Below are positions 11,668 through 26,972 of a stretch of DNA of 35,711 nucleotides, piece after piece. How positions within the stretch are numbered: the stretch's first letter is position 1; each line of letters begins with the position of its first letter. The notes beneath the pieces were generated by a model. It was not told the DNA's origin and did no database searches. It worked only from the letters and a program-made list of their open reading frames with translations. The stretch is from an uncultured Flavobacteriales bacterium (lineage in GTDB: Bacteria; Bacteroidota; Bacteroidia; Flavobacteriales_G; Salibacteraceae). Made by a program: the position numbers and the translations under genes. Location of the stretch: NCBI GenBank assembly GCA_913057205.1, contig CAJXNO010000027.1, forward strand, positions 1 through 35,711, written 5' to 3'.

Positions 11668-12396
11668 CTAGCGACCAGAACGGATACGCTCAGACAAACC
11701 TCGGAAAAGCGGGTGATGCTGATCTTCTAATGCATTACCTATCACCACGAGGTTCGCTCCGGCATTCCACATCCCTTCGATGGCTTCTAAAGACCGCAGA
11801 CCGCCTCCAACGATCAACGGAATATCTGTTGCCTCTGCCACGCTCTTAACCATTTCGGTGGGTACAGCTTTCTTCGCACCACTGCCTGCATCCATGTAAA
11901 TACAGTGCATTCCAACCAGCTCCCCTGCTTGAGCTGTGCAAACAGCGATGTCTACTTTGTCACTCGGTATGGGTTGGGTATGACTCATGTAGCTCACCGA
12001 TGTTGATTGTCCTCCGTCTATGAGCATGTAGCCTGTTGAAATCTTTTTCGCTGCCATTCGCTTCAATCGGGGAGCTGCAAGCACATGTTGTCCGATCAAT
12101 AGATCAGGATTGCGACCAGAGATTAACGATAGGAGTAGAACAGCATCAACATGTTCAGTAAGCTGGGTAAAATGCCCAGGAAATAGTACCAAGGGGACCT
12201 TCGTATTGCTACGAATCAGTTTAGCGCTTTCTTCAATGTTTGCCTTATAAACAAGGGAGCCGCCGATTAGGAGAACATCCGGTTGCAAGGAGTCTACATG
12301 TGCGCACAGGTCTAACAAGGAGTTGGCGTCGTGCTTGTCTGGGTCCACAAGAATGGCAAGCTTTCGATCGGTCTTGTATAGGTCAAATGATGGCAT
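11668..12396 (-). CDS. Geranylgeranylglyceryl/heptaprenylglyceryl phosphate synthase family
   Basis: A 242-aa (beta/alpha)8 enzyme that joins a polyprenyl diphosphate to sn-glycerol-1-phosphate through an ether bond, the first step of archaeal-type lipid synthesis. Motifs include AILVDPDKHD near the N-terminus, VLLIGGSLVYK, VPLVLFPGHFTQL, STGYMLIDGG, CIYMDAGSGAKKAV and the phosphate-binding IPLIVGGGLRSLEAIEG with LVVIGNALE. Homologues are known in Bacteroidota as well as the PcrB proteins of Firmicutes. The open frame extends to 12600 but overlaps the upstream gene; ATG 12396, five bases after the stop of the phosphopantetheinyl transferase gene, begins exactly at the conserved region. The product length of the prenyl chain cannot be read from sequence. 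Confidence 0.9.
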   Translation of the reverse strand: MPSFDLYKTDRKLAILVDPDKHDANSLLDLCAHVDSLQPDVLLIGGSLVYKANIEESAKLIRSNTKVPLVLFPGHFTQLTEHVDAVLLLSLISGRNPDLLIGQHVLAAPRLKRMAAKKISTGYMLIDGGQSTSVSYMSHTQPIPSDKVDIAVCTAQAGELVGMHCIYMDAGSGAKKAVPTEMVKSVAEATDIPLIVGGGLRSLEAIEGMWNAGANLVVIGNALEDQHHPLFRGLSERIRSGR

Positions 12397-12401
12397 GGTG
12401 C

Positions 12402-13043
12402 TCAATCGATGGATCGCACAACTGTATAGGATACGATCAATGGGGCAAAGATGCGAGAAACAACGGAATAATGCTGCTGATGCTGAGGGTGACTCACCTC
12501 GCAATGCTGGTGCCATTTGCCGTTGTTTAGGCCTACCTCCTTGAGGATCAAGTGTTCTTTGAAGAGCACTTGGTTTACTGGGATCACCTTGAAAAGACAC
12601 TCTTTGATACTCCAGAGCTGCAAGAGTGCTTCATCTGCTCCTGCCGCTGTGAGTAAAGCTGTTTCTCCCGGTCGTGCAAACCGACGCTCGATGGCAGATA
12701 TGTTGCGTCCCAACAATTCAATATCAATAGCCACCTCTTCGTTTTCGTGCAAGTAAACGGCCATGTAGTCGTCGGTATGGCTGATGGATAAACGCTCGCC
12801 TCTGCCTCGGAGCGATGGTGCACCTTCCTGATCACGAATGATCTGGGAAGGAGTGCTGAGTAAATACGTAACCACTTGGTCAGCACACGTCAATTGATGG
12901 GTGCGTTCTAATGAATGTCCAGTTCTGTAAGTATTGATGGTCTCTGCTGGCAATTGCTCTACTACCTTGCTTATACGAACGATCATCACACGTCCGCCGA
13001 TCTCTGGAGTGAACTGTTGTAGGATTGCCTTGTTGATGTCCAT
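12402..13043 (-). CDS. 4'-phosphopantetheinyl transferase superfamily protein
   Basis: A 213-aa Sfp-like transferase that moves the phosphopantetheine arm of CoA to a serine of an acyl or peptidyl carrier protein. The metal-binding pair is in VAIDIELLGRNISAIERRFA and the catalytic helix in LLQLWSIKECLFKVI (the WSxKE...K motif); the preceding LSISHTDDYMAVYL is the conserved 'SISHs...a' strand. It is longer than AcpS-type enzymes (~120 aa) and closer to the Sfp half-repeat layout. It is divergent from ahcY over 44 bases and forms a tight pair with the prenylglyceryl phosphate synthase gene downstream. The carrier protein is unknown. Confidence 0.88.
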   Translation of the reverse strand: MDINKAILQQFTPEIGGRVMIVRISKVVEQLPAETINTYRTGHSLERTHQLTCADQVVTYLLSTPSQIIRDQEGAPSLRGRGERLSISHTDDYMAVYLHENEEVAIDIELLGRNISAIERRFARPGETALLTAAGADEALLQLWSIKECLFKVIPVNQVLFKEHLILKEVGLNNGKWHQHCEVSHPQHQQHYSVVSRIFAPLIVSYTVVRSID

Positions 13044-13054
13044 AATGAATACGC

Positions 13055-13072
13055 CAAAGGTTGCTACCTTTG
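13055..13072 (+). promoter_or_regulatory. ahcY -7 element within a perfect inverted repeat
   Basis: CAAAGGT (13055-13061) and ACCTTTG (13066-13072) form a perfect 7-bp inverted repeat around TGCT. The right arm together with the preceding T reads TACCTTTG (13065-13072), a match to the TAnnTTTG -7 box, 15 bases before the ahcY ATG. The repeat lies in the 44-base divergent gap with the phosphopantetheinyl transferase gene and could be an operator. Confidence 0.45.
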
Positions 13073-13087
13073 CACAAATTTTAAAGC

Positions 13088-14398
13088 ATGAGCGAAGTTA
13101 AAGACCGCCTTTCTTACAAGGTCAAAGATATTTCCCTCGCGGAATGGGGACGAAAAGAGATTCAACTGGCAGAAGCTGAAATGCCAGGTTTGATGTCCCT
13201 CCGTGAGGAGTACAGTGCATCAAAGCCCCTGAAAGGAGCGCGCATCGCAGGATGTTTGCACATGACTATCCAAACCGCTGTATTGATCGAAACATTGGTT
13301 GAACTTGGTGCCGACGTAACTTGGTCAAGTTGCAACATCTTCTCTACGCAAGACCACGCTGCCGCTGCTATCGCGAAAGCGGGCATTCCAGTGTTTGCAT
13401 GGAAGGGCATGACAGAAGAAGAATTTGATTGGTGCATCGAGCAAACCTTGTTTGCGTTTGAGGGCGGACAACCCTTGAACATGATCTTGGATGATGGTGG
13501 AGACCTTACCAATATGGTGTTCGATAAGTATCCGGAGTTGACCAAAGACATCCGAGGCTTGTCTGAAGAGACGACCACAGGTGTGCACCGTCTGTACGAG
13601 CGCATGAAAAATGGCACCCTTGTGATGCCAGCGATCAACGTGAACGACTCGGTTACCAAGTCGAAGTTCGATAACAAGTACGGCTGTAAGGAGTCGTTGG
13701 TAGATGCGATCCGTCGTGCTACCGATGTGATGATGGCGGGTAAAGTAGCTGTTGTTGCAGGTTACGGTGACGTTGGAAAAGGTTCAGCAGCATCGCTTCG
13801 TGGAGCAGGTGCGCGTGTGATCGTGAGTGAGATCGATCCGATCTGTGCGCTTCAAGCAGCGATGGATGGTTTCGAAGTGAAGAAGATGGTAGACGCGGTG
13901 AAGGAAGCAGATATCGTTGTAACCGCAACAGGAAACAAAGACATCGTGCAAAGCGTGCATTTCGAAAGCATGAAAGACAAGGCGATCGTTTGTAACATCG
14001 GACACTTTGACAATGAGATTGATGTGGCTTGGTTGAATAAGAATGCTGAGCGTGATGAGATCAAGCCTCAAGTAGATCTTTACACCTTGAAAAGCGGAAA
14101 CCAGATCATCTTACTCGCTGAAGGCCGATTGGTGAATTTGGGATGTGCAACAGGACACCCATCTTTCGTGATGTCGAATTCCTTCACCAACCAGACCTTG
14201 GCTCAGATCGAGTTGTGGAAGAACCACGGCGATTACAAGAATGAAGTTTACGTGCTTCCAAAGCACCTCGATGAGAAGGTTGCGATGCTCCACCTGATGA
14301 AGATCGGTGTTGAGTTGGATGAATTGACCCAAGATCAAGCCGATTACATCGGCGTTCCAAAGGAAGGTCCATTCAAGCCAGAGCACTACCGTTACTAA
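13088..14398 (+). CDS. ahcY: Adenosylhomocysteinase
   Basis: Hydrolyses S-adenosylhomocysteine to adenosine and homocysteine, removing the product inhibitor of methyltransferases. The 436-aa protein has [20 protein letters not shown] and [18 protein letters not shown] in the substrate-binding domain, and the [19 protein letters not shown] block with the conserved lysine that contacts substrate. The NAD-binding turn is [20 protein letters not shown], and the family-specific C-terminus ends [11 protein letters not shown]. Length matches the bacterial form lacking large inserts. The frame is intact. It is the partner step of metK in the SAM cycle. A -7 box inside an inverted repeat precedes it and a strong terminator follows. 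Confidence 0.98.
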
Positions 14399-14423
14399 AA
14401 CAAGGACGGAATATCAGTAAATC

Positions 14424-14448
14424 AAAGGGAGCTTCGGCTCCCTTTTTT
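14424..14448 (+). terminator. Intrinsic terminator after ahcY
   Basis: AAAGGGAGC (14424-14432) pairs perfectly with GCTCCCTTT (14437-14445) around a TTCG tetraloop and is followed by more T residues. The T-run overlaps the stop codon of the convergent lipoprotein gene. Confidence 0.92.
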
Positions 14449-14869
14449 AGTTGGTGATGATCAGGTTACTGCCGTCGAAACTCGTCTGGTATTCACGCAA
14501 AGGCAAAGAGGCTGGTCCGCGTAAGACTTGTCCATCCAACAACAGCCACTGAGACCCAGAGCACGTATCTGTGCAGTACGTAGAACCAGTGTCTACAAAG
14601 ACCTTGCACTTCTCGCGAACATTATAAGGAGCTTGCCGATCATAGGCCTTCACTTCGTCATTGTTTACCCGGTAAGCGATGATACCGTTGTATCCCTCAT
14701 CCAGGTAAACCCAGCCATTGATGAAGTTTAAGTTATTGTATTGAGGAAGATTGGTGCTGAGTTCCACATCAACTCGTACATTCGGAACAAGGTGTTCGCT
14801 TGGTGTTCGTTGACAGTTACTCAATGAAAGCGCCCCTGCACTCATTATCAGTATGAAAAAACGTTTCAC
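14447..14869 (-). CDS. Lipoprotein with degenerate Rieske-like fold
   Basis: The open frame begins at TTG 14896, but I choose GTG 14869 because it yields a textbook lipoprotein signal (KRFFILIMSAGALSLSNC, lipobox LSNC) and has AAGGAA just upstream. The mature part resembles a Rieske domain: INGWVYLDEGYNGIIAYRV, then EVKAYDRQAPYN, then a cysteine region, then LLLDGQVLRGPASLPLREY and DGSNLIIT. That matches the usual 'dG....GPA..PL..Y....dg..l.I' ending. However the C-x-H...C-x-x-H ligands are missing: cysteines occur at REKC and CTDTC but there is no histidine partner. It therefore probably does not hold a 2Fe-2S cluster. Function unknown; location likely the periplasmic face of a membrane. Divergent from the next gene. 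Confidence 0.65.
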   Translation of the reverse strand: MKRFFILIMSAGALSLSNCQRTPSEHLVPNVRVDVELSTNLPQYNNLNFINGWVYLDEGYNGIIAYRVNNDEVKAYDRQAPYNVREKCKVFVDTGSTYCTDTCSGSQWLLLDGQVLRGPASLPLREYQTSFDGSNLIITN

Positions 14870-14889
14870 TTCCTTATTATAGATTTTGA

Positions 14890-15180
14890 ATGACAAACCT
14901 AGCGATTAGATGTGCAATTGCTTTATGGATCATGTTCGCCATGATACCGGATCAAGCAGGAGCGCAATCGAGAAAGAGATTAAAGGAACTGGAGAAGACA
15001 GAGGAGCGTCAGCAAGAAGAAGCGCAGGCTGCAGAAGAAGAGGGAAGGAAGAGGCACATGGACATCCAGAGCAAACAAACGAGAAAGGAAATGAAGCGCT
15101 ATCGAAAGCAGAGCAAGCGCTACAACAAAAACAAACGCGAACCCTTCTACAAACGATGGTTCCGAAGAAAAAGAAGATAA
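14890..15180 (+). CDS. Small basic exported protein, function unknown
   Basis: A 96-aa protein with an N-terminal signal peptide (MTNLAIRCAIALWIMFAMIP, cleavage likely after QAGA). The rest is almost entirely charged: an Arg/Lys/Glu-rich helix-forming stretch (RLKELEKTEERQQEEAQAAE) and a very basic tail (KREPFYKRWFRRKRR). I do not recognise a named family. The basic tail could contact phospholipid, LPS or nucleic acid. It is first in a tight operon: the next ATG starts one base after its stop. Confidence 0.6.
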   Translation: MTNLAIRCAIALWIMFAMIPDQAGAQSRKRLKELEKTEERQQEEAQAAEEEGRKRHMDIQSKQTRKEMKRYRKQSKRYNKNKREPFYKRWFRRKRR

Positions 15181-15181
15181 G

Positions 15182-15592
15182 ATGGATGATATTGAAAACC
15201 TGATTTACATCCTGTTTGTACTGATCAGTTTGATCAGCGGAGTATGGAAGAACGCTTCCAAACAAAAGGAAGAAAAGAAGCGGCGCGCAGCCATGGAACA
15301 AACAGTGGCCGAAGACGAGGCGGAGGAAGTATCAACTTGGCGACCTGAACCTATTCCGGTAGTACCAACCGAGAAGGATGAAGCGGCGGCAGAGCGATTG
15401 GAGCAAATGAAGCGAGCAGCGGAAGAGGCCCGATCAAACCGACGCTTGAGAAAACGCAACCTCTTAGCAGATGATGTACTCCCTGTGGAAGAGGAAGCGC
15501 CTAAGCTGGCTTCATTGCACAGCTATAAGAGCGACTTTGATGCGAAGAAGGCAGTCATCTATAGTGAAATCCTTAACCCACCATACCTATGA
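15182..15592 (+). CDS. Single-TM membrane protein, function unknown
   Basis: A 136-aa protein with one N-terminal membrane segment (about residues 6-22, LIYILFVLISLISGVWK) followed by a long Lys/Glu/Arg-rich, probably helical cytoplasmic region. It ends in a conserved-looking tail (KKAVIYSEILNPPYL), and the -SEILNPPYL ending is typical of uncharacterised Bacteroidota membrane proteins of this size. The stop codon overlaps the ATG of the LytTR regulator (ATGA), implying translational coupling. Confidence 0.65.
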   Translation: MDDIENLIYILFVLISLISGVWKNASKQKEEKKRRAAMEQTVAEDEAEEVSTWRPEPIPVVPTEKDEAAAERLEQMKRAAEEARSNRRLRKRNLLADDVLPVEEEAPKLASLHSYKSDFDAKKAVIYSEILNPPYL

Positions 15593-16344
15593 AAAAGATC
15601 AGAACACTTCTGGTAGACGACGAAGAGTTGGCTCGAAAGAACATGGCCTTCATGCTCAATGAACACTGTCCGGAAGTGGAGGTGATCGGTGAGGCGGCTA
15701 ACGCAAAAGTAGCACGAGAGATCATCTTGAATGATGAGATTGACCTCTTGTTATTGGATATCGAAATGCCGAATGGTTCAGGTTTTGATCTTTTGGAGAG
15801 CTTAGAAGGCGACTTTCATTTCAAGATTATTTTCATCACAGCATACCATGAATATGCGCTACGTGCGTTCAGGTTCTCGGCGGTAGATTACCTCTTGAAG
15901 CCGATCAATGAAGAAGACCTCATTGCGGCAATTGCTAAGGTCAGACCCGGCAAGGATGAAGAACCTCGGGAAAAGATCGAGCACCTGATCGAGAACATTT
16001 CGAAGAAAGGGGAAGCATTGGATAAGTTGGCGTTACCAAGTATGGAGGGCTTGAAGTTCGTTGAGCTAGACCACATCATCTACTGTGAGAGTCAAGACAA
16101 CTATACCCAATTCTTTCTGACCAGCGGTGAGCGCATCATGGTATCAAAGACCATCAAGCACTTTGAAGAGTTGCTCGACCCGGACCGTTTTTTCAGGGTG
16201 CACCGATCCAATATCATCAACCTGAAGTACATCGATAAATATGTCAAAGGAGAAGGTGGATATGTGGTCATGCAGCAGGGTAACCGGATCCCTGTTTCAA
16301 GGAGAAGAAAGGAGGCCTTTCTACAACTTTTTCATCATCAGTAG
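15589..16344 (+). CDS. LytTR-family response regulator
   Basis: A 251-aa two-domain regulator. The receiver domain (about residues 1-120) has the acidic pair in LLVDDEELARKN, the phospho-acceptor Asp57 in LLLLDIEMPNGSGFDLLE, Thr in IIFITAYHEYALRAF and Lys in YLLKPI. The C-terminal LytTR DNA-binding domain (about 150-250) has FVELDHIIYCESQDNYTQFF, then TIKHFEELLDPDRFFRVHRS and NIINLKYIDKY, then RIPVSRRRKEAF. Such regulators normally pair with LytS/His_kinase-type sensors; none lies in the window. It is coupled to two small envelope proteins upstream. Confidence 0.93.
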   Translation: MKKIRTLLVDDEELARKNMAFMLNEHCPEVEVIGEAANAKVAREIILNDEIDLLLLDIEMPNGSGFDLLESLEGDFHFKIIFITAYHEYALRAFRFSAVDYLLKPINEEDLIAAIAKVRPGKDEEPREKIEHLIENISKKGEALDKLALPSMEGLKFVELDHIIYCESQDNYTQFFLTSGERIMVSKTIKHFEELLDPDRFFRVHRSNIINLKYIDKYVKGEGGYVVMQQGNRIPVSRRRKEAFLQLFHHQ

Positions 16345-16589: not shown

Positions 16590-19500
16590 ATGAGAAAAAT
16601 TTTACTACTCACCTTAGGGTTATTGGTTTCGACGTTGAGCGGTTTTGCTCAAAGTGGTCAGGGTGCCATCAATGCAACGGTAACGGAAGCAGGCAACGGA
16701 TTACCTATTCCGTTTGCGAACGTTGCGGTTAAGCAGAATGGTAGTCTGATTACAGGTGCTTCAACCGACTTCGACGGAAAAGTGGAGATCAAGCCTATTC
16801 CGCCAGGAAAATATGATGTGGAGATCACCAGTTTAGGTTTTGCTCCGATCAAGGTGGGTGGGGTTCAGGTTACCGCCAATAAGTCAACCTTCATTCCAAA
16901 GTCTAGTACAGCAATGACCAGCTCAGCGATCCAGATCGATGAATTCGTGGTTATTGAATACAAGAAGCCACTGATCGAACAGGATGGCGCGGCAACCCAA
17001 GAGACCGTAACCTCGGATGAGATCGCTAGGATGGCCGCTCGTAACCCAGCTGAACTCGCTGCAACCGCTGGAGGTACGTATTCAAAGGATGACGGTTCAA
17101 ATAGCTTGAACGTTCGTGGAGGTCGATCCGACGCGAACTACTACTTCATCGATGGTATTAAGGTGCGTGGTTCATCTGCGATTCCACAGTCTTCTATAGA
17201 ACAAGTTTCCGTAATTACTGGAGGTCTTCCTGCACAATATGGAGACGTTACCGGTGGTGTGGTTTCCATTACTACGAAAGGTGTTTCTAGAAAGTATGCA
17301 GGAGGGTTTGAGATCCTTTCATCTGGTGTACCGTTGGGTGATGCTTATGTGGGTTTGGATCCTTATGGCTATAACTTGCTTGAAGCGAGTGTTTCTGGTC
17401 CGCTGATCAGTAGACGTGATTCATTGGGTGAGAAGGAGCCCTTAGTTGGATTCTTCCTTTCAGGTAACTTCACATCAAACCGCGATTCTCGTCCATCTGC
17501 TGTAGGTGCATGGAAGGTGAAGGATGATGTACTGACTCGTCTTCAGCAAGATCCATTGCGTCAAGGCTTTACCGAAGGCGCTGTGATTCCTAACACAGAC
17601 TACTTACGATTGAATGATTTTGAGCACGTTGATGTACGTCCAAATACCCAGAATCTGGGGGCGAACTTGGCCGGTAAGATCGATGTTGCTACGACCAGCA
17701 CAACCAACCTGACCTTTGGAGGTAGCTTGAACTACTCTCGAGGTCGTGACTATGGTTTTGCTCAGTCGCTCTTCAACTATGATAACTATCCAGAGGTAAC
17801 CAACCTCGACTGGAGAGCTTATGCGCGATTCACACAGCGATTCAAGAATGCGGAAAGCGATGATGAGGCTTCTGCTTCATTGATCAAGAATGCATATTAT
17901 ACCATCCAAGCGGATTACAGCCAGGAGTATGGTCGCCGTTGGAATCCTGAGTTCCGAGATGATTTCTTCCGGTATGGACACATCGGTACCTTCGAGACCT
18001 ACCAAGGTGCGGCGTTCGAACCAGGCATTGATGGACGTACAGGTATCTTCGGAAACATTCAACAGACCTTTGAAGATACACTCATTGCGTTTACCCCAGG
18101 TAACTCAAATCCACAGTTAGCTCAGTATACGCAGCGTTACTATGAATTGAACGGTTGGGAAGGGTTTGACGAAGAAGGCAATCCTATCTATGATCCGGCA
18201 TTGAGCAACGCGTTTACCAACATCAACAACATCCAAGGTGGTGGAGGTTTGATCAACGGTGATGGTTTGGATCAGCGTAACTTGAACACCTATGGTATGT
18301 GGATCTACAACAGTGACCTTACCAACCGTGGTGGCGCTGCTGTGAACAACTACTTCGAAAGCATTACCAATCAGGTGCGATTGACCGGTCAAGGCTCTGC
18401 CGACATCGGTAACCACCAGTTCATCATCGGTTTCGAGTATGAGCAACGTATCGACCGTGCATACAGCTTGAGTCCACGTGCATTGTGGACCATCGCGCGT
18501 CTCCGTTCAAACACCCACGTTACCGAACGTGATACCAACAACCCAATCATTACTTATCCTGGTCCAACCATCACGTATACGCGTTTGAATGCATCTCCAG
18601 GTGAGTACGATCCTACCAATCCGGAAGAAGCGCAGAGCTTCATTGACTTCAACCTACGTCGTGCAACTGGTTTGGATCCTGATGGAGTGGATTTCTTAGA
18701 CGTGAATGCAATCGATCCTGAGACCTACCAATTGGAGTACTTCTCAGCCGACGAATTATATAATGGTGGTGCATCGTCTGTAGTAAGCTATTTTGGTTAC
18801 GATGCATACGGTAACCGTTCAACGGCAACCCCATCATTCGATGACTTCTTTACTGCCCGTGATGAGTTCGGTAACCTTACTCGTCCGATCGCGCCATTCC
18901 AGCCGATCTACGTTTCGGGTTACATTGAAGATAAGTTCGAGTTTGATGACTTGATCTTCCGTGTAGGTCTTCGCGTTGACCGCTTTGATGCGAACCAGCA
19001 AGTATTGAAGGATCCTTATGTACTGTTCCCAACCGTGAAGGCGGGAGAGGATGCTGCATTGGAGTTGTTGCCAGAAGGAGTGGATAACCACCCATCGAAC
19101 ATCGGGGAGGACTACGTAGTATATGTAGACAACATTCAAAGTCCAACGCAGATCTTGGGTTACCGTGATGGCAACACTTGGTACAACTCTGAAGGAGCTG
19201 AATTGAGTGATGCATCTGCACTCCGTGTATCAAACGGTTTGCCTGCACCATTCTTGGTTGATCCAGAACAGAACAACAGTGTTGAGGTGACCTCTGAGTC
19301 GTTCGAAGATTATCGTCCGCAGACCAACTTCATGCCACGTGTGGCCTTCTCGTTCCCAATCTCAGATGAGGCGAACTTCTTTGCGCACTATGATATTTTG
19401 ACGAAGCGACCTACTACAGGTATTCGCTTAGATCCATCGGATTACTATTATTTGGAGAGCCGTGCAAGTGCTGCGCAGTTGGCTAACCCAGCATTGCGTC

Positions 19501-20381
19501 CAGAGCGTACCATCGACTACGAGGTTGGCTTCCAGCAGGCATTGACCAATGCCATGGCATTGAAGATATCTGCCTTCTACCGTGAGTCTAGAGATATGGT
19601 TTCTTCGGTACGTGTGTTTGATGCTTATCCGATCGAGTACGTTTCTTTTGAAAACCTTGATTTCAGTACGGTAAAAGGTTTGACCGTTTCTTACGACTTG
19701 CGTAGAACCAACAACTTAACAGTTCGTGCGAGCTACACGCTTCAGTTTGCTGAAGGTACCGGGTCTAACTCAACATCACAGTTGAACTTGGCACGTACTG
19801 GTCAGCCAAACCTACGTGCACCGATCGCCTTGTCTTATGACCAAAGGCACCAGATTCGTGCGAACTTTGACTACCGTTATGGTGAGGACGAGAACTATAA
19901 TGGACCGGTACTTGGAAACAGTCAGATTTTGAAGAATACAGGGTTCAACTTGCAGATCATCGGTGGTTCTGGAGAACCGTACAACCCGCAGTCTAACTTT
20001 ACGTCTGCAGCGCTCTTCAACAACGTGCCGAACCCATTGCAGAAAGGTGCCATCAACAGTGCACGTCTCCCATGGACATTCCGCTTCGATTTCGTATTGG
20101 ATCGAGACTTTGTATTGTCTATGAACTCTGGAAAAGAAATTTACTTGAACGCTTACGCCCAGATATTGAACTTGCTGAATGCACGTAACATCAATGGTGT
20201 TTATCGTGCAACCGGTAATCCTGATGATGATGGTTACTTGAACTCAGCGCTTGGGCGTGAATTTACCCGTGAACAAAACAGCCCCTTGGCCTTTGTTGAA
20301 TACTACAACATGAAGCTTTGGGATCCTGTCAACTGGCAGTTACCTAGAAGAATTAGACTTGGTTTGAGAGTGAACTTCTAA
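16590..20381 (+). CDS. Large TonB-dependent receptor (first gene of surface trio)
   Basis: A 1263-aa outer-membrane receptor. It has a signal peptide (MRKILLLTLGLLVSTLSGFAQ). A CarboxypepD-like domain follows (about 25-110, AINATVTEAGNGLPIPFANV and FDGKVEIKPIPPGKYDVEI), then a short linker with EFVVIEYKKPLIEQDGAA. The plug is at about 130-240 (SLNVRGGRSDANYYFIDGIK, EQVSVITGGLPAQYGDVTGG). The barrel is very long and ends RIRLGLRVNF. Substrate is unknown. It differs from ordinary siderophore receptors in size and in its fixed neighbours, a ~1500-aa exported protein 24 bases downstream and a PorV-like protein after that. Codon use is strongly biased to CGT, GGT and AAC, suggesting high expression. 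Confidence 0.9.
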   Translation: MRKILLLTLGLLVSTLSGFAQSGQGAINATVTEAGNGLPIPFANVAVKQNGSLITGASTDFDGKVEIKPIPPGKYDVEITSLGFAPIKVGGVQVTANKSTFIPKSSTAMTSSAIQIDEFVVIEYKKPLIEQDGAATQETVTSDEIARMAARNPAELAATAGGTYSKDDGSNSLNVRGGRSDANYYFIDGIKVRGSSAIPQSSIEQVSVITGGLPAQYGDVTGGVVSITTKGVSRKYAGGFEILSSGVPLGDAYVGLDPYGYNLLEASVSGPLISRRDSLGEKEPLVGFFLSGNFTSNRDSRPSAVGAWKVKDDVLTRLQQDPLRQGFTEGAVIPNTDYLRLNDFEHVDVRPNTQNLGANLAGKIDVATTSTTNLTFGGSLNYSRGRDYGFAQSLFNYDNYPEVTNLDWRAYARFTQRFKNAESDDEASASLIKNAYYTIQADYSQEYGRRWNPEFRDDFFRYGHIGTFETYQGAAFEPGIDGRTGIFGNIQQTFEDTLIAFTPGNSNPQLAQYTQRYYELNGWEGFDEEGNPIYDPALSNAFTNINNIQGGGGLINGDGLDQRNLNTYGMWIYNSDLTNRGGAAVNNYFESITNQVRLTGQGSADIGNHQFIIGFEYEQRIDRAYSLSPRALWTIARLRSNTHVTERDTNNPIITYPGPTITYTRLNASPGEYDPTNPEEAQSFIDFNLRRATGLDPDGVDFLDVNAIDPETYQLEYFSADELYNGGASSVVSYFGYDAYGNRSTATPSFDDFFTARDEFGNLTRPIAPFQPIYVSGYIEDKFEFDDLIFRVGLRVDRFDANQQVLKDPYVLFPTVKAGEDAALELLPEGVDNHPSNIGEDYVVYVDNIQSPTQILGYRDGNTWYNSEGAELSDASALRVSNGLPAPFLVDPEQNNSVEVTSESFEDYRPQTNFMPRVAFSFPISDEANFFAHYDILTKRPTTGIRLDPSDYYYLESRASAAQLANPALRPERTIDYEVGFQQALTNAMALKISAFYRESRDMVSSVRVFDAYPIEYVSFENLDFSTVKGLTVSYDLRRTNNLTVRASYTLQFAEGTGSNSTSQLNLARTGQPNLRAPIALSYDQRHQIRANFDYRYGEDENYNGPVLGNSQILKNTGFNLQIIGGSGEPYNPQSNFTSAALFNNVPNPLQKGAINSARLPWTFRFDFVLDRDFVLSMNSGKEIYLNAYAQILNLLNARNINGVYRATGNPDDDGYLNSALGREFTREQNSPLAFVEYYNMKLWDPVNWQLPRRIRLGLRVNF

Positions 20382-20405
20382 AGAACCTAAGAGAGAACAG
20401 TGATT

Positions 20406-23400
20406 ATGAAAATGCGAGCCTTACTTTTTAGTGTACTTATTGCTTCTGTGAGCTTCCATGCGAATGCAGAACGGTATAAGTACGAGCAGAAAAATAAAGG
20501 AGGAGATCAACCTCCTGTTACTGCAGCGAACTGTACACCAGCGACTGCAGCTGCGGAATTGAATATCAATAACACCAAAGCCCTCATTCAAAGTGGTGGT
20601 GACATGTGGTGGGACTTCAACCGAGCGCGATATGAAATACCATCGGGTTCAGAGAAGACCTCGCTCTTTGCCGGATCGCTTTGGTTGGCTGGACAGGATG
20701 TTTCTGGACAGTTCAAGGTGGCTGCCCTTCGTTTCCGTCAGATCGGTAACGACTATTGGACAGGTCCGTTAAGTACAGTAGATGCAGAGATCGATCCGCA
20801 GACCTGTCAAGACTATGACCGTCACTGGGAGACCACCCGTTCAATGGTAGCTGAGTTCAGCGCATGGTGGGAAGCTGGTCAGTTCGACCAAGAGAATAAT
20901 ACCAATACGCAGGAAGAGCTTTACCCAGGCTACACACCTCCAGCGGTGATTGAAGAGTGGCCAGCACACGGTCGTAACTTCTCACCTTATAATGAGGATT
21001 ACTACCTGGCTCCGTTCTTTGATCGCAATGGCGATGGAGATTACAACCCAAGCGATGGAGACTATCCAGGCTATGTACTCAATGGTCAAAGCGACTGCAG
21101 CCGACGCGTTCGTGACGTTTATGGTGACCAGAACCTTTGGTGGGTATTCAACGATAAGGGTAATATTCACACCGAGTCTAATGGACAGGCGATCGGTATG
21201 GAGATCCGTGCACAGGCTTTCGCATTTGCCACTACGGATGAAGTGAATAACATGACCTTCTACAACTACGAGTTGATCAACCGTTCGACCTTTGAATTGA
21301 CCGACACGTATTTCGGACAGTGGGTGGATGGTGACCTCGGTAATGCGCAGGATGACTACGTTGGCGTAGACGTTGAGCGTGGATTGGGTTACTTCTACAA
21401 CGGTGATGATGAAGATGAAGATGCACAAGGTCAGTTGGGCTATGGATTAAATCCACCAGCTGTAGGTGTTGACTTCTTCCAAGGTCCGTTCCAAGCGAAT
21501 GACTCAAAAGACAACTGTTTGTGTGAGAATGACTACGCAGCAGCGATTGCCGATGATGGTATTGTATATCCTGGACAGGGTGCTGGTTATGGCGATGGTA
21601 TCGTAGACAACGAGCGATATGGAATGCGTAAATTCTTGTATCACAACAATGCCTCTGGTCCTCAAGGAGACCCTAGTAATGCTACCGACTACTATAACAT
21701 GTTGCGTGGCCTCTGGCGAGATGGTACTCCGATGACCTACGGTGGTAATGGATATGATCCAGCCAATCCAAATGCAATACCTGCAGGATACATGTTCCCT
21801 GGTGAAACCGATCCAGTAGGATGGGGTACAGGAGGTATTCCTCAGGAGCGCTGGACGGAGGTTACCGCTGGTAACTCGCCTGCTGACCGTCGTTTCGTTC
21901 AGTCATCAGGTCCTTTCCGCTTAGGCCCAGGTGCAGTAAACAACATTACTGTTGGTGTAGTGTGGATGCAGGCTACCCAAGGTGGTCGATTGGAATCGGT
22001 TGAATTGATGCGTAAGGCAGATGATAAGACCCAGGCATTGTTCGACTCTTGCTTTGAGATCCTAGATGGTCCAGATTCACCTGAAATGACGGTTCAAGAA
22101 TTGGATCGTGAGGTGATCTTGATGATCACTAATCCGGTGAACTCGAATAACTTTAATGAAGAGTATGCAGTTGTTGATCCATTCTTGGCAGCACCTGATA
22201 GTGTAGACATAAATGATGATGGAGTTAATGATGTCCGCTTGACACAAGAGGAAAAAGAACTATACGCTACCTACAAGTTTGAGGGTTATCAGATCTATCA
22301 ATTGGCCGACGGTTCTGTAGGTACCAACGATTTGAACGATCCTGATAAGGCGCGTTTGGTCGCTCAGGTTGATATAGCGAACGATGTAGATCGCTTGGTG
22401 AACTTCGAGTTTGACTCACGTATCGGACAAGATGTCCCAGTGGTGAAGGTGGATGGTGAGAACCAAGGTATCCGCCACACGTTCAAAGTAGACCGTGACC
22501 TTTTTGCAACCGAGGATTCTCGTTTGGTAAACCATAAAACCTACTACTTCATGGCGATCGCTTATGCGTACAACCGCTTTGGAGATGGCGAGGGTAACCT
22601 CCAGTATATTGATGGCGTTTACGATCCGGCTAATGGCAGAACAGAGGGACAGAAGATTCCTTATTTGGCTTCTCGTAAAGCTCCTAATGGTCCTGTTCGT
22701 GTATATGAGGTGATTCCTCATAAAACAGAGATGGAAATGGGCGGTATCGAGTTGAACGCTCAGTACGGCGACGGTATTGAACTGACCAGAGTTGAAGGCC
22801 GTGGTAATGGTGGTTTGTTTGTGAACATCAAAGAGGACTACTTGGATTCAATCCTTTCGCCTTCTACTTGGGAAACCAGAAACCTGACCTTCCAGGCGGG
22901 CGAAGGCCCTGTAGCATTGAAGGTTGTAGATCCATTGGTGATTCCACCTGGTGACTTTACCATCCAGTTCATTGATACCACAGGAACCGGAAACAGCGAG
23001 AACTTCACTTGGTTGCTGTATGAACGCAACAATCCAGATGCTCCGATCGATACGATCTTTGCTGATCAGACTGTACGACAACGCAATGAGCAGATCATGT
23101 TTGAGCTCGGTCTTTCGTTAACCGTAGGTCCAGGTTACCCTGCACACGATGAGGATGCCGTACGAAATGGTTTCGTAGGCTTCGATATCGCTTACGATGA
23201 CGAGACCGACCAATGGTTGACCGGTTTCGCTGACCAAGATGGTAACGAGATCTCTGATTGGATCAAGAGCGGTACATTCTATCCAAGTGCACAGGATATT
23301 CCACCGTCGCAAAACGACTGCTTCCTGGATCCTCCTACGAACTCCATCCCTTGTGATGAGAACGAGAACTATGAGAACATCTTGGGAAGAACATGGGCTC

Positions 23401-24908
23401 CGTTTGCGGTAGCAAGTTATGACACCGCTCACCCGATCCCACTTTATGTGGCGAATGGACAAGAGCGTAACACCTTCAGTGAGCGTATGCGTGTTGCAGC
23501 TTCATTGGACCTCTTGCCAAGTGTTGACATCATCTTTGATCCAAATCCGGATAATTGGACACGAGCAGCTGTATTTGAAGCAGAGGATAACCCGACCCTG
23601 AGTGTTGGAGGTGTTCAACGAGGCGAATTGCGTCGTGCGCTTTCTGTAGACAAGCAAGGCCGAAACCAATTGGATCCCGAGTGTAATGTAGAGGAAGCTA
23701 CATTTAACGGTGAGCAGATCATCGGTAACCGAGTGAGCGAAATGCGCGATAAGGATATTGAGTTCTTCGAATCTTTGGGTATCGAGTCGTCAGAACTTGG
23801 TCAATACTCTTTCGGAATGGGCTGGTTCCCTGGTTATGCGATAGATGTTGAGACCGGTGAACGATTGAACATTGCATTCGCTGAGAACTCATGGTTGGGT
23901 AACCAAAATGGCGACGACATGCTTTGGAATCCAACGGATCAGATCGCTGAGCAGCTCTTCGGAGAACTTCGCTTGGGAGGTATGCACATGATCTATGTGT
24001 TCCGAAGCAATAAGGATGAAGGTCCTGAATTGGGCGATGCTGACCTCTTGATGCCAGCATACGATGGTGGAACCTTCACCTTCCAGAACATGTTGGCATG
24101 GGATCCAACAGACGTTGCGGCGTTGTTGCAGCCAAGCAACGAGCAGAATCAAGAATACCTTGCCGTGATGCGTTCTGCTGCCTGGGTAGGTTATCCATTG
24201 CTGCAAGAGAATGCGCAGCTCTTTGGAGCCTCTGGTGAGAACAAGGTAAAGATCAGTCTTCGTTCAGCGAAGCCTTACAAGCCTTACACCCCGTCTGAGG
24301 AGGTGTTCTCGAACCCAAGTCAGATTCAGGCTGGGCAGACCTATTACGTCCGTAATGGTGAGATTCGGGTGAATCAGGAGCAGATCATCCCAGTGGGTGA
24401 TAGCTTTGAAGTGAACATCGTAGATGAGGAGTTCTTCCGAGGACAAACTTTCACGGCAATCGAGGGTGGAGCGATTGGTGGTTCCAATGACATTGAGCTC
24501 GTTGAGACCATTAACAGAGGTTTGCCTCTATACAACTTCAGTACGGACGATGTGGCACCTACTATGTCGCAAGACATCGGTGTAGAAGCCTTGGATCAGA
24601 TCAAAGTTGTGCCGAATCCATACTACGCGTATAGCGAGTATGAGCAAACCCGTCTACAGTACTTGGTGAAGATCATCAACCTGCCTCAAACGTGTACGGT
24701 GAACATCTTTACCGTCAACGGTACACTGGTACGTACCTTCCGTAAGGATGATGCTACCGTGACGAGCATCGACTGGGACTTGAAGAACCAAGACAACATC
24801 ACTGTAGCGAGTGGACTTTATATCATGCATATCGAAGTTCCTGGCATCGGTGAGAAAGTGATCAAATGGTTTGGAGTACTGCGTCCAATTGACTTGAACT
24901 CCTTCTAA
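20406..24908 (+). CDS. ~1500-aa exported protein with T9SS-like C-terminal domain
   Basis: The product has a signal peptide (MKMRALLFSVLIASVSFHANA) and no membrane segment. About residues 200-330 hold a conserved-looking region: FFDRNGDGDYNPSDGDYPGY resembles an acidic calcium-binding loop, followed by WWVFNDKGNIHTESNGQAIG and MTFYNYELINRSTFELTDTY. The last ~100 residues (IKVVPNPYYAYSEYEQTRLQ, TVNIFTVNGTLVRTF, VASGLYIMHIEV and KVIKWFGVLRPIDLNSF) look like a type A T9SS sorting domain, suggesting surface export. A GTG at 20400 is in frame, but ATG 20406 gives the better signal peptide. No enzymatic motif was recognised. The protein probably works with the flanking receptor and PorV-like barrel. 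No frameshift is seen. Confidence 0.82.
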   Translation: MKMRALLFSVLIASVSFHANAERYKYEQKNKGGDQPPVTAANCTPATAAAELNINNTKALIQSGGDMWWDFNRARYEIPSGSEKTSLFAGSLWLAGQDVSGQFKVAALRFRQIGNDYWTGPLSTVDAEIDPQTCQDYDRHWETTRSMVAEFSAWWEAGQFDQENNTNTQEELYPGYTPPAVIEEWPAHGRNFSPYNEDYYLAPFFDRNGDGDYNPSDGDYPGYVLNGQSDCSRRVRDVYGDQNLWWVFNDKGNIHTESNGQAIGMEIRAQAFAFATTDEVNNMTFYNYELINRSTFELTDTYFGQWVDGDLGNAQDDYVGVDVERGLGYFYNGDDEDEDAQGQLGYGLNPPAVGVDFFQGPFQANDSKDNCLCENDYAAAIADDGIVYPGQGAGYGDGIVDNERYGMRKFLYHNNASGPQGDPSNATDYYNMLRGLWRDGTPMTYGGNGYDPANPNAIPAGYMFPGETDPVGWGTGGIPQERWTEVTAGNSPADRRFVQSSGPFRLGPGAVNNITVGVVWMQATQGGRLESVELMRKADDKTQALFDSCFEILDGPDSPEMTVQELDREVILMITNPVNSNNFNEEYAVVDPFLAAPDSVDINDDGVNDVRLTQEEKELYATYKFEGYQIYQLADGSVGTNDLNDPDKARLVAQVDIANDVDRLVNFEFDSRIGQDVPVVKVDGENQGIRHTFKVDRDLFATEDSRLVNHKTYYFMAIAYAYNRFGDGEGNLQYIDGVYDPANGRTEGQKIPYLASRKAPNGPVRVYEVIPHKTEMEMGGIELNAQYGDGIELTRVEGRGNGGLFVNIKEDYLDSILSPSTWETRNLTFQAGEGPVALKVVDPLVIPPGDFTIQFIDTTGTGNSENFTWLLYERNNPDAPIDTIFADQTVRQRNEQIMFELGLSLTVGPGYPAHDEDAVRNGFVGFDIAYDDETDQWLTGFADQDGNEISDWIKSGTFYPSAQDIPPSQNDCFLDPPTNSIPCDENENYENILGRTWAPFAVASYDTAHPIPLYVANGQERNTFSERMRVAASLDLLPSVDIIFDPNPDNWTRAAVFEAEDNPTLSVGGVQRGELRRALSVDKQGRNQLDPECNVEEATFNGEQIIGNRVSEMRDKDIEFFESLGIESSELGQYSFGMGWFPGYAIDVETGERLNIAFAENSWLGNQNGDDMLWNPTDQIAEQLFGELRLGGMHMIYVFRSNKDEGPELGDADLLMPAYDGGTFTFQNMLAWDPTDVAALLQPSNEQNQEYLAVMRSAAWVGYPLLQENAQLFGASGENKVKISLRSAKPYKPYTPSEEVFSNPSQIQAGQTYYVRNGEIRVNQEQIIPVGDSFEVNIVDEEFFRGQTFTAIEGGAIGGSNDIELVETINRGLPLYNFSTDDVAPTMSQDIGVEALDQIKVVPNPYYAYSEYEQTRLQYLVKIINLPQTCTVNIFTVNGTLVRTFRKDDATVTSIDWDLKNQDNITVASGLYIMHIEVPGIGEKVIKWFGVLRPIDLNSF

Positions 24909-24931
24909 CCAACACCTAACGACTAAGTATT

Positions 24932-26023
24932 ATGAGAACAGCGAAATATATCATAGCCTCAGCGCTCATCCTAACGGGAGGAATGACTCAGGCAGGAAAT
25001 AAGGAGCGGATCGGTCAAGCGGGAGCAAATGAGCTGCTTATCAATCCATGGGCAAGAAGCTCAGGGTTTGGTGGAGCGAATACTGCCTTCGTAACGGGTG
25101 TTGAAGCGTTCAACTTGAATATCTCAGGACTGAGTGGTATCAATAAAACAGAGTTGTATTACAGCAATGTGATGCTTTTCACCGGTGCTGATATCAACAT
25201 CAACTCAGTAGCCTTGGGTCAACGCGTAGGGGAGTCTGCCGTATTCGGACTTTCGATCAATGCGATGAACTTGGGTGAGATGGAGATCACCACAACCCAG
25301 AACCCAGATGGAGGTCAAGGTACCTTCACTCCACAGTTCCTGAATTTGGCCATTGGATATGCTCGATCGTTTTCGAATAGTATTCATGGTGGTGGAGCAA
25401 TTCGTATCATCAGCGAATCCATCAACGATGTTGGTGCACAGGGGGTAGCTCTTGACGCCGGTATCCGCTACATCACAGGTGACTATGACCGTGTGAAATT
25501 TGGTATTGCCTTGAGAAATGTTGGCCCGAAGATGCGTTACAGTGGTGACGGACTTTCTGAAGTGGTTTTGCTCCAGGATGGTGAGTTTACCTTGAACCAA
25601 CGTACAGAGGCATTCGAACTTCCTGCTCTGTTGAACATCGGTGCTTCTTATGACCTTTACCTTTTCCAGAAGCCTTTGGCTGAAGGAGAGGAGCGTGATG
25701 ATGAGGTGGCTCCAAGCGACTACCGCATCACCTTGGCTGGTAACTTCACATCGAACTCCTTCTCTCAGGATCAGATCCGTGGTGGTATTGAGTTCGGCTA
25801 TTCAAAATACCTAGCTGTGCGCGCTGGTTTAGTGTATGAAGCAAATGGCTTTGCAGCGCTGGGTGAGGGTCGAGTTAATGCAAATACAGGTCCAACCGTA
25901 GGTATGTCATTGATGTTGCCATTCGGTGGTGAGGACGTCAGTGGAGTTAGTGTTGACTACGGCTATCGCTTCGCGAACCCACTGGGTGGTACCCACACCT
26001 TCGGATTGCGCTTGTCACTGTAA
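24932..26023 (+). CDS. PorV/PorQ-family outer-membrane protein
   Basis: A 363-aa beta-barrel protein with signal peptide (MRTAKYIIASALILTGGMTQ). After it comes the family pattern IGQAGANELLINPWARSSGF, then GGANTAFVTGVEAFNLNISGL, which corresponds to the 'aGa.eL.i.vgAR..alGgA..a.v.g.ea..wNpAgl' start of PorV/PorQ proteins. It ends GGTHTFGLRLSL, a typical barrel C-terminus. PorV is the shuttle that carries T9SS substrates from the translocon to the attachment complex; paralogues are also found with specific surface proteins. Here it is 23 bases after the T9SS-tailed protein, so a dedicated role for that protein is likely but inferred. It is shorter than classical PorV (~390-400 aa). Confidence 0.85.
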   Translation: MRTAKYIIASALILTGGMTQAGNKERIGQAGANELLINPWARSSGFGGANTAFVTGVEAFNLNISGLSGINKTELYYSNVMLFTGADININSVALGQRVGESAVFGLSINAMNLGEMEITTTQNPDGGQGTFTPQFLNLAIGYARSFSNSIHGGGAIRIISESINDVGAQGVALDAGIRYITGDYDRVKFGIALRNVGPKMRYSGDGLSEVVLLQDGEFTLNQRTEAFELPALLNIGASYDLYLFQKPLAEGEERDDEVAPSDYRITLAGNFTSNSFSQDQIRGGIEFGYSKYLAVRAGLVYEANGFAALGEGRVNANTGPTVGMSLMLPFGGEDVSGVSVDYGYRFANPLGGTHTFGLRLSL

Positions 26024-26050: not shown

Positions 26051-26082
26051 GGAACCGTTCTCAGAGCGGTTCCTTTCTTTTT
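26051..26082 (+). terminator. Intrinsic terminator after the PorV-like gene
   Basis: GGAACCG (26051-26057) pairs perfectly with CGGTTCC (26067-26073); the loop can also form CT/AG pairs. It is followed by TTTCTTTTTG. It closes the receptor trio operon before greA. Confidence 0.85.
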
Positions 26083-26103: not shown

Positions 26104-26577
26104 ATGTCTCAGATCACATACTACACCGAAGAGGGATTAAAGAAACTGAAGGACGAACTGCATGAGATGAAGACCGTGCAACGTCCTGCGATCTCTAGGC
26201 AGATCGCTGAAGCGAGGGATAAAGGAGACCTTTCCGAGAATGCGGAATACGATGCTGCTAAGGAAGCACAGGGACTCCTGGAGATGAAGATAGCTAAGTT
26301 AGAAGCGGTCATCAGCAATGCGCGCATCATCGATAAAAGTCAACTCGATACAGAGAAGGTTCTTATCTTATCTACTGTTCGCCTGAAGAACTTTGGAATG
26401 AACAAGGAGCTCACTTACACCTTGGTAGCAGAGAATGAAGCTAACCTCCGCGAAGGTAAGATCAGTGTTGAGTCACCGATCGGTAAAGGACTGTTGGGTA
26501 AGAAGGTCGGTGAAGTGGCCGAGATCCAAGTGCCAAATGGTGTGATGAAGTTCGAAGTACTCGAGATCACCCGCTAA
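26104..26577 (+). CDS. greA: Transcription elongation factor GreA
   Basis: A 157-aa protein of the usual GreA length. The N-terminal coiled coil starts YYTEEGLKKLKDELHEMKTV and carries the tip loop DKGDLSENAEYDAAKEAQG; its acidic Asp and Glu residues stimulate transcript cleavage by backtracked RNA polymerase. The C-terminal FKBP-like domain has the SPIGKGLLGKKVGE signature and VPNGVMKFEVLEI. The stop overlaps the ATG of the HIT protein gene (TAATG), so the pair is translationally coupled. Confidence 0.97.
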   Translation: MSQITYYTEEGLKKLKDELHEMKTVQRPAISRQIAEARDKGDLSENAEYDAAKEAQGLLEMKIAKLEAVISNARIIDKSQLDTEKVLILSTVRLKNFGMNKELTYTLVAENEANLREGKISVESPIGKGLLGKKVGEVAEIQVPNGVMKFEVLEITR

Positions 26578-26972
26578 TGGCGTCCATTTTCACCAAGATC
26601 GGTCAAGGTGACATTCCTGGTCACTTCGTAGCGAGAAACGACGAGTTTTTCGCCATTCTCGATATCAATCCTTTGCGCAAGGGACATGTCTTGGTGATTC
26701 CGTTTGATGAGGTGGACTACATCTATGACCTGCCTTCAGATAAACTTGGTAGGTATTTTCAATTTGCCCAGCGCGTTGCGGAGGCGATTAAGAAGGCAGT
26801 GGACTGCAACCGAATTGGAACAGCAGTGGTGGGATTAGAAGTGCCTCATGCCCACATCCACCTCATTCCCATCGATCAGATCGATGACATGAACTTTAGC
26901 AGACTTAAGCTCGATTTATCTCAGGATGAACTGGCAGAGATCGCCCAGCAGATCGCTCAGCAATTCATTTGA
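26577..26972 (+). CDS. HIT-family nucleotide hydrolase
   Basis: A 131-aa histidine-triad protein. The nucleotide-binding N-terminal part is IFTKIGQGDIPGHFVARNDE, with FAILDINPLRKGHVLVIP. The catalytic triad is VPHAHIHLIP with His91, His93 and His95, His93 being the expected nucleophile. Family members split AMP from lysyl-AMP, adenosine phosphoramidates or dinucleoside polyphosphates. It is coupled to greA. Its 3' end overlaps the 3' end of the convergent ruvC gene by eight bases. Confidence 0.95.
   Translation: MASIFTKIGQGDIPGHFVARNDEFFAILDINPLRKGHVLVIPFDEVDYIYDLPSDKLGRYFQFAQRVAEAIKKAVDCNRIGTAVVGLEVPHAHIHLIPIDQIDDMNFSRLKLDLSQDELAEIAQQIAQQFI

Follow-up and report, generated by a model that had tools for sequence, protein, structure and literature searches.

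A conserved gene trio of TonB-dependent receptor, T9SS-type surface protein and PorV-family barrel in Bacteroidota, possibly an importer with a barrel-held lid

Layout of the locus

The window, a 35,711-nucleotide stretch from an uncultured Flavobacteriales bacterium (contig CAJXNO010000027.1), contains three genes for outer-membrane or surface proteins that follow one another on the forward strand. The first (positions 16590-20381, + strand) encodes a TonB-dependent receptor (TBDR) of 1263 aa with a signal peptide, a CarboxypepD_reg-like domain (PF13620, 48.5 bits against a cut-off of 32.3), the plug domain that marks such receptors (PF07715, 38.2 bits, cut-off 23.9), and a long C-terminal stretch taken to form the barrel, for which the Pfam barrel models gave nothing at E ≤ 1 and receptor models gave weak partial matches. 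The SusC-type model TIGR04056 is absent from the six matches of this receptor at E ≤ 1. The second gene (20406-24908, +) encodes an exported surface protein of about 1500 aa, here called BIG, for which we prefer the ATG at 20406 (1500 aa) to the longest possible start, a GTG at 20400 (1502 aa), and the third (24932-26023, +) encodes a PorV/PorQ-family outer-membrane barrel of 363 aa.

The TBDR-BIG gap is 18 bases (24 if BIG begins at the ATG) and the BIG-barrel gap 23 bases; the initial annotation had described just such a packed trio, and this was borne out, with all genes on the + strand and gaps of about 20 bases. The terminator that it placed after the trio can also be recognized, as an intrinsic-terminator-like hairpin with a 10-pair stem and then a T-run at 26051-26073 (+), in a region whose 9 terminator-like sites are not enriched over the mean of 8.2 in shuffles. 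Promoters of Bacteroidota differ in type from sigma-70-type promoters; a scan for the latter across the 245 bases 5' of TBDR gave no match, a result that carries no weight either way. The reported bias toward CGT, GGT and AAC held when the trio was compared with 16 hand-picked ORFs of the window, in the share of GGT among Gly codons (0.59 vs 0.34), in CGT+CGC (0.69 vs 0.51) and in AAC (0.64 vs 0.49), as well as in TTC (0.67 vs 0.56), with no rise over the same ORFs in GAC, TAC or ATC. Single-sequence PDB searches with TBDR, BIG and the barrel gave no match for any of them, and profiles were required.

Conservation across Bacteroidota

Conservation was judged in two collections of loci. Set A comprises the best 78 loci among 573 relatives, in which 69 BIGs could be judged, and set B comprises phylum-wide stretches hand-chosen among BIG matches, mostly from genomes used already, with early batches picked partly on C-terminal matches and later ones on matches to the N-terminal part only. 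Further samples of 30 genomes and 20 stretches were likewise hand-chosen, and neighbourhoods were scored without a random control. Alignment A1 takes in 48/49 set A trios, A2 40/49 and A3 24/49, while A4 samples 16 from the 97 type A matches discussed below; TBDR was aligned across 87 trios, and in the trees the window is joined by a third of set A.

Both neighbours are present, in the order receptor-BIG-barrel, for 49 of the 69 set A BIGs, and both are present for 38 of the 47 set B BIGs whose stretches extend far enough for a judgement. The carriers include a named strain, Salibacter halophilus (locus L067). The expectation, set down beforehand, that the three genes would be conserved together thus proved correct, one order being kept in many Bacteroidota, and because the arrangement is kept in distant relatives the trio is no chance grouping. 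Of the family's 35 genomes, 34 encode BIG, among them all 24 of good quality; many families of the same class lack it.

The flanking genes were surveyed for hints of a ligand. Within the clade of the window, housekeeping genes flank the trio (AHCY in 28/42; greA, downstream, in 45/46), and the flanking genes showed no recurrent ligand-specific gene. The recurrent flanks outside this clade, in a scan of 91 of 111 flank proteins (20 were omitted), are GWxTD-domain proteins (19/91), T9SS cargos (12) and DUF4397 proteins (6); these gave no clue to the substrate among the 25 commonest families of the 91 proteins. Immediately upstream of the window's trio lies a gene for a LytTR-type response regulator (15589-16344, +). 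The same neighbour occurs in 16 of the 47 set A trios that could be judged, and it is a possible regulator of the trio.

A stable neighbourhood such as that in the window's clade, with greA so regularly downstream, is what would be expected if the three genes merely encoded co-expressed surface proteins, with BIG a conserved adhesin or coat protein and no joint machine. We consider this unlikely, since the trio order survives in genomes of other classes amid different flanking genes.

The large surface protein and its predicted fold

No Pfam or NCBIfam family passed its cut-off on BIG, the family scans gave no SusD-family match, and, on inspection by eye, the signal peptide is not followed by a lipobox Cys. 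In an AF2 model the N-domain (residues ~46-552; 20541-22061, +) has a predicted fold resembling that of the N-domains in GH94, GH15 and GH116 enzymes (best VIA-align Z 18.1, 249 aligned residues, rmsd 3.1, over model residues ~20-530). In those enzymes, an N-domain is combined with a catalytic (alpha/alpha)6 barrel. The model of BIG contains just two helices of ≥10 residues (122-141 and 504-524), with lower confidence past residue ~750, and BIG apparently has no catalytic helical barrel. The likeness of the N-domain fold by itself shows no function.

A distinct type of T9SS signal

The C-terminal domain of BIG (residues ~1388-1500; 24567-24905, +) had been called T9SS-like, and this assignment is real, though the domain scores below the cut-off of 23 for TIGR04183, at 20.8 bits in isolation and 15.5 bits within the whole protein. 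PorU of the same genome is itself borderline for this model (22.6 and 26.9 bits in two scans), and 97 type A signals exceed the cut-off in this genome among 150 scored of 177 candidates. TIGR04183 was matched at E ≤ 1 by each of the 24 C-terminal domains that were scanned, and 23 of the 24 match the PorZ model, as 23 of 24 do the PorU model. In a PDB profile search, PorZ (5m11, E 0.0083) and PorU (6za2, E 0.29) were weak matches and the top two of three. Type A signals carry a PNP motif, a mid Gly, SGxY and a Lys near the end, and Gly, Tyr and Lys columns of this type A-like pattern are invariant over 38 aligned rows of C-terminal domains. BIG's last ten residues (24876-24905, +) form a conserved extension that, in the alignments, continues beyond the point where type A signals normally stop; both trees place the two set B trios without it (L128 and L202) outside the clade. 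Neither the type B signal (TIGR04131/PF13585) in BIG nor PorP/SprF in the barrel was detected at E ≤ 1. Judged by sequence, the C-terminal domain is a distinct T9SS signal subtype.

The genome encodes a nearly full-length SprA (2488.8 bits) together with PorU, PorV and PorQ, and in a sample of 296 genomes SprA occurs in 141/141 genomes with a BIG-like match, with no such match in the 68 SprA-negative genomes. There is thus good indirect evidence that BIG travels by the T9SS and is no lipoprotein.

The same observations bear on whether the trio is instead a dedicated secretion unit, in which an Oar-like receptor would export or assemble BIG, and BIG would be structural or shed, with no uptake involved. 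There is precedent for a TonB-dependent transporter serving secretion, as the part of PMC6434023 that concerns Oar describes its requirement for PopC secretion in Myxococcus, and the receptor gene does stand before the cargo gene in the conserved trios. BIG, however, already has an exporter, given its T9SS-type signal and its restriction to SprA-bearing genomes in the sample, and 18 of the 69 set A BIGs lack both receptor and barrel next door (20 lack one or both). A secretion unit therefore appears rather unlikely.

A separate clade of PorV-family barrels

The third gene matches the PorV/PorQ family (NF033709) at 137.9 bits, above the cut-off of 90, but remains below the equivalog cut-offs for PorQ (59.9 against 220), PorV (54.2 against 250) and PorV2 (29.5 against 325), and genes that pass these three cut-offs sit elsewhere in the same genome. 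A lead to "PorV2" in PMC10994853 was dropped, as the string is PorV followed by a citation number. For PorV-family genes other than PorV, PorQ and PorV2, NCBIfam offers a family name only. The barrel appears in the trees as a PorV-family clade of its own, distinct from all three. The initial annotation had called it BIG's own export shuttle; the PorV-family part of that claim stands, and is refined here by the separate clade and by a BIG signal nearest to the retained signals of PorZ and PorU.

The barrel profile matched the PorV structure 6h3i_F with E 3.8e-20, and in a fold search PorV was best (Z 33.5), followed by FadL, TodX and TbuX at Z 25-29. A natural fusion in which the BIG tail reads through into the barrel was modelled with AlphaFold as a probe of docking; the pTM of 0.67 speaks neither for docking nor against it, and the barrel dominates the structural search with this model. 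The second tier of fold matches would suit a FadL-type channel for hydrophobic compounds, with BIG as an accessory binding protein, but PorV is the better match by both fold and profile, and the barrel's tie to a T9SS signal subtype, described below, suits a carrier better than a channel. We regard hydrophobic-compound uptake as improbable.

Signal and barrel travel together

Among set B proteins with the N-domain, a barrel gene lies next door in 63 of 74 with a trio-type signal and in 0 of 21 with other endings. For loci fetched after the profile was built, the barrel adjoins 23 of 31 with the signal and 0 of 13 without it (Fisher 4e-6), and a receptor is directly upstream of 0 of the 19 judged set B N-domain proteins with other endings. 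One of the 21, a 731-aa protein on the genome's own contig C47, has receptor and barrel genes in its cluster, not adjoining it. Twenty further hand-chosen proteins join a similar signal to other bodies, and all 20 have both TBDR and PorV-family genes in their stretches; for a rough comparison, an over-cut-off PorV-family gene is found within 10 kb of 3 among the genome's 97 type A matches, namely PorU and two C47-module cargos.

These counts speak against BIG being an ordinary type A cargo beside an unrelated receptor, with the PorV paralogue a spare general shuttle. The BIG signal is akin to 16 type A signals of its own genome (hhalign probability 85.6, E 5.6e-6), as that explanation would have it; the lack of a directly adjoining barrel or receptor beside set B proteins with other endings makes it improbable. 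The 20 set A BIGs that lack one or both neighbours still bear the trio-type signal, and together with the 11 of 74 signal-bearing set B proteins without a barrel next door they indicate that an adjacent barrel is not obligatory. Such BIGs may use a barrel in trans.

Two parallel modules with other cargos exist alongside the trio. The PorV-family and TBDR trees split alike, by module, so that receptor and barrel descend together within each module, which argues further against an adhesin or coat with no joint machine. The module with a cargo of ~700 aa, which the genome has on contig C47, turned up in 13 of the 17 other genomes that supplied a stretch for this purpose, the remaining 4 not being examined for it; signal aside, neither BIG nor the ~700-aa cargos match a family. 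We tentatively suggest, at slightly less than even confidence, that Bacteroidota have a whole class of such units, at least three parallel modules, each coupling a TBDR to a dedicated surface protein that the T9SS exports and a cognate PorV paralogue anchors, as a barrel-anchored alternative to SusCD. Searches of open-access PMC papers turned up no description of a unit of receptor, T9SS cargo and PorV paralogue, an absence that is weak evidence.

A proposed mechanism

Our preferred reading, to which we give about an even chance, is that the trio is a SusCD-like TonB-dependent importer with a lid that leaves the cell through the T9SS and is retained by a dedicated PorV paralogue. The C-terminal signal of BIG, a dedicated subtype, would be bound by the PorV-family barrel encoded beside it, and would probably not be cleaved by PorU, staying docked on the barrel by analogy with PorZ-PorQ and PorU-PorV. 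Since the signal of BIG is most like the retained signals of PorZ and PorU, the barrel may act both as carrier and as lasting membrane anchor. The N-domain, whose predicted fold occurs in carbohydrate-active enzymes, and the long middle region of BIG could then form a ligand-capturing lid over TBDR. TonB would power the uptake of something large, with a glycan or another polymer fragment as the likeliest ligand.

A rule by which a PorV paralogue goes with a cargo bearing the cognate signal, and often with a TBDR, would hint at what many of these genes do, and would mean that the T9SS builds lasting import complexes besides secreting enzymes. It would also open to testing a question raised in PMC10202324, namely how certain T9SS signals are spared from cleavage.

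Comparison with known systems

In the Bacteroidota BAM complex, a FadL-fold barrel, BamG, holds a large surface protein, BamH, according to the portion of PMC12578637 that treats this pair. Unlike BIG, BamH is described there as a lipoprotein, and the BamG-BamH unit serves barrel assembly. The idea that the trio is a BAM-type complex was rejected on the lipoprotein nature of BamH, and the BAM literature, in the portions covering these components, contains no tie to the trio.

In SusC/SusD systems, the receptor and its partner are co-encoded, as the trio's TonB-dependent receptor is with its large surface partner. BIG differs from SusD in having no lipobox or SusD match and in carrying a T9SS-type signal, the receptor lacks TIGR04056, and a PorV-family gene is present as a third member; the initial annotation had already set the trio apart by its non-lipoprotein partner and its PorV-like gene. 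The surface partner of SusC/SusD (RagA/RagB) is thought to act as a lid, in the account of the complex within PMC7618045.

SprB-SprF and other type B cargos offer a second parallel, being clustered with a dedicated PorP/SprF barrel that the pertinent section of PMC10202324 reports as a proposed anchor. BIG is likewise clustered with a dedicated barrel, but its signal is type A-like, the barrel belongs to the PorV family and a receptor is added.

The nearest parallels to BIG's signal are PorZ on PorQ and PorU on PorV, T9SS-exported proteins whose C-terminal domains stay on a PorV-family barrel, and for PorZ/PorQ the cognate PorV-like barrel is proposed to shield the signal from cleavage (both from the passages of PMC10202324 on retained cargo). 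The trio's barrel, unlike PorQ and PorV of the attachment complex, is not an equivalog of PorV, PorQ or PorV2, and BIG matches the PorU and PorZ models in its signal only, within a unit that also includes a TonB-dependent receptor.

Three surface genes on one strand

The three same-strand genes that the initial annotation had placed at positions 16590-26023 are present there, and they encode a receptor, a protein of ~1500 residues, and a PorV/PorQ-family barrel. The TonB-dependent receptor (TBDR; 16590-20381, plus strand) has CarboxypepD_reg and Plug domains above the Pfam cut-offs; the large protein, designated BIG (20406-24908, plus strand, its longest frame starting from GTG at 20400), passes no family cut-off; and the barrel (24932-26023, plus strand) passes NF033709. 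The gap between TBDR and BIG is 18-24 bases and that between BIG and the barrel 23 bases. By eye, each of the three carries a signal peptide, with no lipobox cysteine visible behind that of BIG. The proposed codon bias also holds, mainly for GGT (0.59 in the trio vs 0.34 in 16 other ORFs of the window).

The 5' neighbor of the trio is a LytTR response regulator (15589-16344), and on the 3' side lie a terminator-like hairpin and greA, with greA and then a HIT-family gene occupying 26104-26972. Genes with the same starts as greA and the HIT gene were recognized by eye behind the trio in four loci from other families of the class (L174, L176, L177, and L179). LytTR response regulators also lie 5' of 16 of the 47 judged trios among named relatives and of some orphan BIG genes (L048:6964-7713, L058:3-581, and L059:7110-7856), hinting at a regulator shared by trios and orphans alike.

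Conservation across Bacteroidota and the link to type IX secretion

Loci of named relatives (set A, the best 78 of 573) came from a pattern search of a collection with one genome per species (84,980 species), and their neighbors were identified by seeking the window's proteins in ORFs and then with profiles. Among the 69 BIGs whose loci extend at least 1.5 kb on the upstream side and at least 0.7 kb on the downstream side, the receptor was directly upstream in 51 and the barrel directly downstream in 49, at median gaps of 17 and 20 bases, and 18 had neither. Labels on these records include Flavobacteriales, Salibacteraceae, Crocinitomicaceae, Cryomorphaceae, and others, and Salibacter halophilus (L067) has the complete trio. 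BIG-like matches, some partial, occur in 141 of 296 Bacteroidota genomes. A second set of stretches (set B) was hand-picked around such matches phylum-wide, and its 38 complete trios all share the same order, 32 of them in genomes from classes other than the window's. The co-occurrence of the three families across the phylum, which the initial annotation had asked to be checked, is thus found in both sets, with both neighbors present for 49/69 BIGs in set A and 38/47 with room to judge in set B.

Within the window's own family, BIG is present in 34 of 35 genomes (24 of 24 among those of good quality). In the order, whose 42 genomes include the 35 of this family, the C-terminal profile finds a match in 41. 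Many Bacteroidia are without BIG, since same-class matches in the 296-genome search fall in four families only (f1, f6, f7, and f8), and five hand-chosen genomes from two others (f3 and f5) gave zero matches to the trio signal. A same-genus genome contains a fragment (G315:C2:354473-355435) that matches query residues 1175-1500 and belongs to a second copy of BIG; three stop codons break it, so surplus BIG copies seem to decay and the trio copy to be kept. GWxTD-domain proteins (TIGR04514) make up 19 of 91 scanned flank proteins of set B trios outside the window's clade (e.g., L189:13062-16013 and L125:13409-16208, coordinates assigned by likeness of protein starts); the term GWxTD was not found in open-access papers.

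SprA, the T9SS translocon, is encoded in 228 of the 296 genomes, including all 141 with a BIG-like match, and none of the 68 SprA-negative genomes has such a match. The Fisher value is 9e-24, but the events are not independent because 16 of the 20 listed SprA-negative genomes belong to one family. The window's own genome encodes SprA, PorU adjoining PorV, PorQ, and PorV2 beside a PorU2-like ORF, together with 97 matches over cut-off to the ordinary (type A) C-terminal signal. In L172 (C15:35000-50000 of this genome), positions 6777-11358, the ORF behind PorV2 (NF052325, 500 bits), at 9053-10396, spans just 395-816 of the 879 positions in the PorU2 model; a damaged PorU2-like gene or an assembly error may account for this.

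A signal subtype tied to the neighboring barrel

BIG ends in a strongly conserved ~110-residue domain with a mean column identity of 59% over 24 set A rows and 43% over 38 rows reaching other classes; the window's genome gives 35% over 16 of its type A signals, an unfair yardstick since these are paralogues. Profile alignment relates the domain to type A signals (hhalign, E 5.6e-6). TIGR04183 is matched at E<=1 by each of the 24 rows, with 20.8 bits for the window's copy, below the cut-off of 23. The best models for this copy are PorZ and PorU, which are also the top matches of the profile among all PDB sequences, at weak E-values (0.0083 and 0.29). The PorZ and PorU signals are described as remaining uncleaved, bound to PorQ and PorV (PMC10202324). 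Trio signals extend ~10 residues beyond the usual end, often with an aromatic last residue, an extension seen by eye in 36 of 38 set B trios.

All set B proteins with a BIG N-terminal domain and a judged downstream side were compared, with at least 80 bits taken as a trio-type signal. A PorV-family gene lies directly downstream of 63/74 with this signal vs 0/21 with other endings, in a comparison where the signal profile was partly built from these loci and some early stretches were picked on C-terminal matches. The later stretches (L203-L242), all picked on N-part matches and most from genomes already sampled, gave 23/31 vs 0/13 (Fisher 4e-6). N-domain proteins with an ordinary signal, such as a 516-aa paralogue on contig C7 of the window's genome (L168), have no adjoining receptor or barrel; an exception in kind is a 731-aa protein on contig C47, counted in the 21, whose cluster includes both genes but not adjacent to it. 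Orphan BIGs in set A retain the trio-type signal and perhaps use a barrel encoded elsewhere in the genome. N-domain proteins whose endings are not trio-type also occur in tandem, four at L187:5279-17504 and three at L204:3460-12256, and neither a receptor nor a barrel was seen beside them.

Parallel modules

When 30 hand-chosen genomes were searched with the trio signal, single genomes had as many as 19 matches, and a second size class emerged at ~700 residues, with one member on C47. All 20 stretches fetched around such matches (17 genomes) contain a receptor and a PorV-family gene. Seven are receptor-cargo-barrel trios, one (L247) with ~1 kb between cargo and barrel, and 13 share the C47 order of cargo, ~500-aa protein, receptor, barrel, and ~370-aa protein, most with space for an additional gene behind the cargo. 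The C47 module itself (L169, C47:1-18000; 4031-15139, minus strand) comprises the 731-aa protein with its BIG-like signal, an 802-aa PKD/type A protein as second T9SS cargo, a 480-aa protein, a TBDR, a PorV-family barrel, and a 397-aa likely lipoprotein.

The receptor tree (99 sequences) and the barrel tree (102) split three modules alike (76/78, 14/14, and 7/7), with identical outliers (L128 and L202) and low receptor-tree support (0.47) for the group of seven. PorV, PorQ, and PorV2 of the window's genome fall outside the module groups in the barrel tree. Since both trees separate the modules alike, these look to be inherited as units.

Predicted structures

An AlphaFold2 model of BIG residues 24-1205 (pLDDT 74, pTM 0.58) is less confident past about model residue 750. 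Its region ~20-530 matches the N-terminal parts of dextran dextrinase, cellodextrin phosphorylase, glucodextranase, and a GH116 glucosidase (Z 16-18, 230-270 residues, rmsd 3-4), which we take to be the beta-supersandwich preceding the catalytic barrel; cellodextrin phosphorylase and glucodextranase presumably belong to GH94 and GH15. With just two helices of at least 10 residues in the model, BIG seems to lack the helical barrel while keeping the sandwich, suggestive of a binding rather than a catalytic role. The modeled PorV-family barrel matches PorV first (Z 33.5) and then FadL, and the BIG tail and barrel, folded as a read-through chain to look for docking, gave a pTM of 0.67, which speaks neither for nor against it.

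A possible import unit and its relation to known systems

The three genes are conserved as a unit, are confined in the sample to genomes with SprA, and have a signal subtype tied to the barrel. We give even odds to the trio being a TonB-dependent import unit in which T9SS exports the lid and a dedicated PorV paralogue holds it. If so, BIG would pass through SprA on its cognate barrel, its signal would escape cleavage, and BIG would stay lastingly anchored and contact the receptor, where its N-domain would capture a ligand and uptake would follow.

TBDRs, T9SS cargo, and the PorV family are already known as separate pieces. Their combination was not found in open-access papers, the literature covered, and the trio has a real chance of representing a new class of outer-membrane complex. 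PorV is described as the carrier on which type A cargo exits SprA, and type B cargo as having alternative carriers that afterwards anchor it (PMC10994853). The trio would add a third arrangement, in which a type A-like cargo is paired with a dedicated PorV-family carrier.
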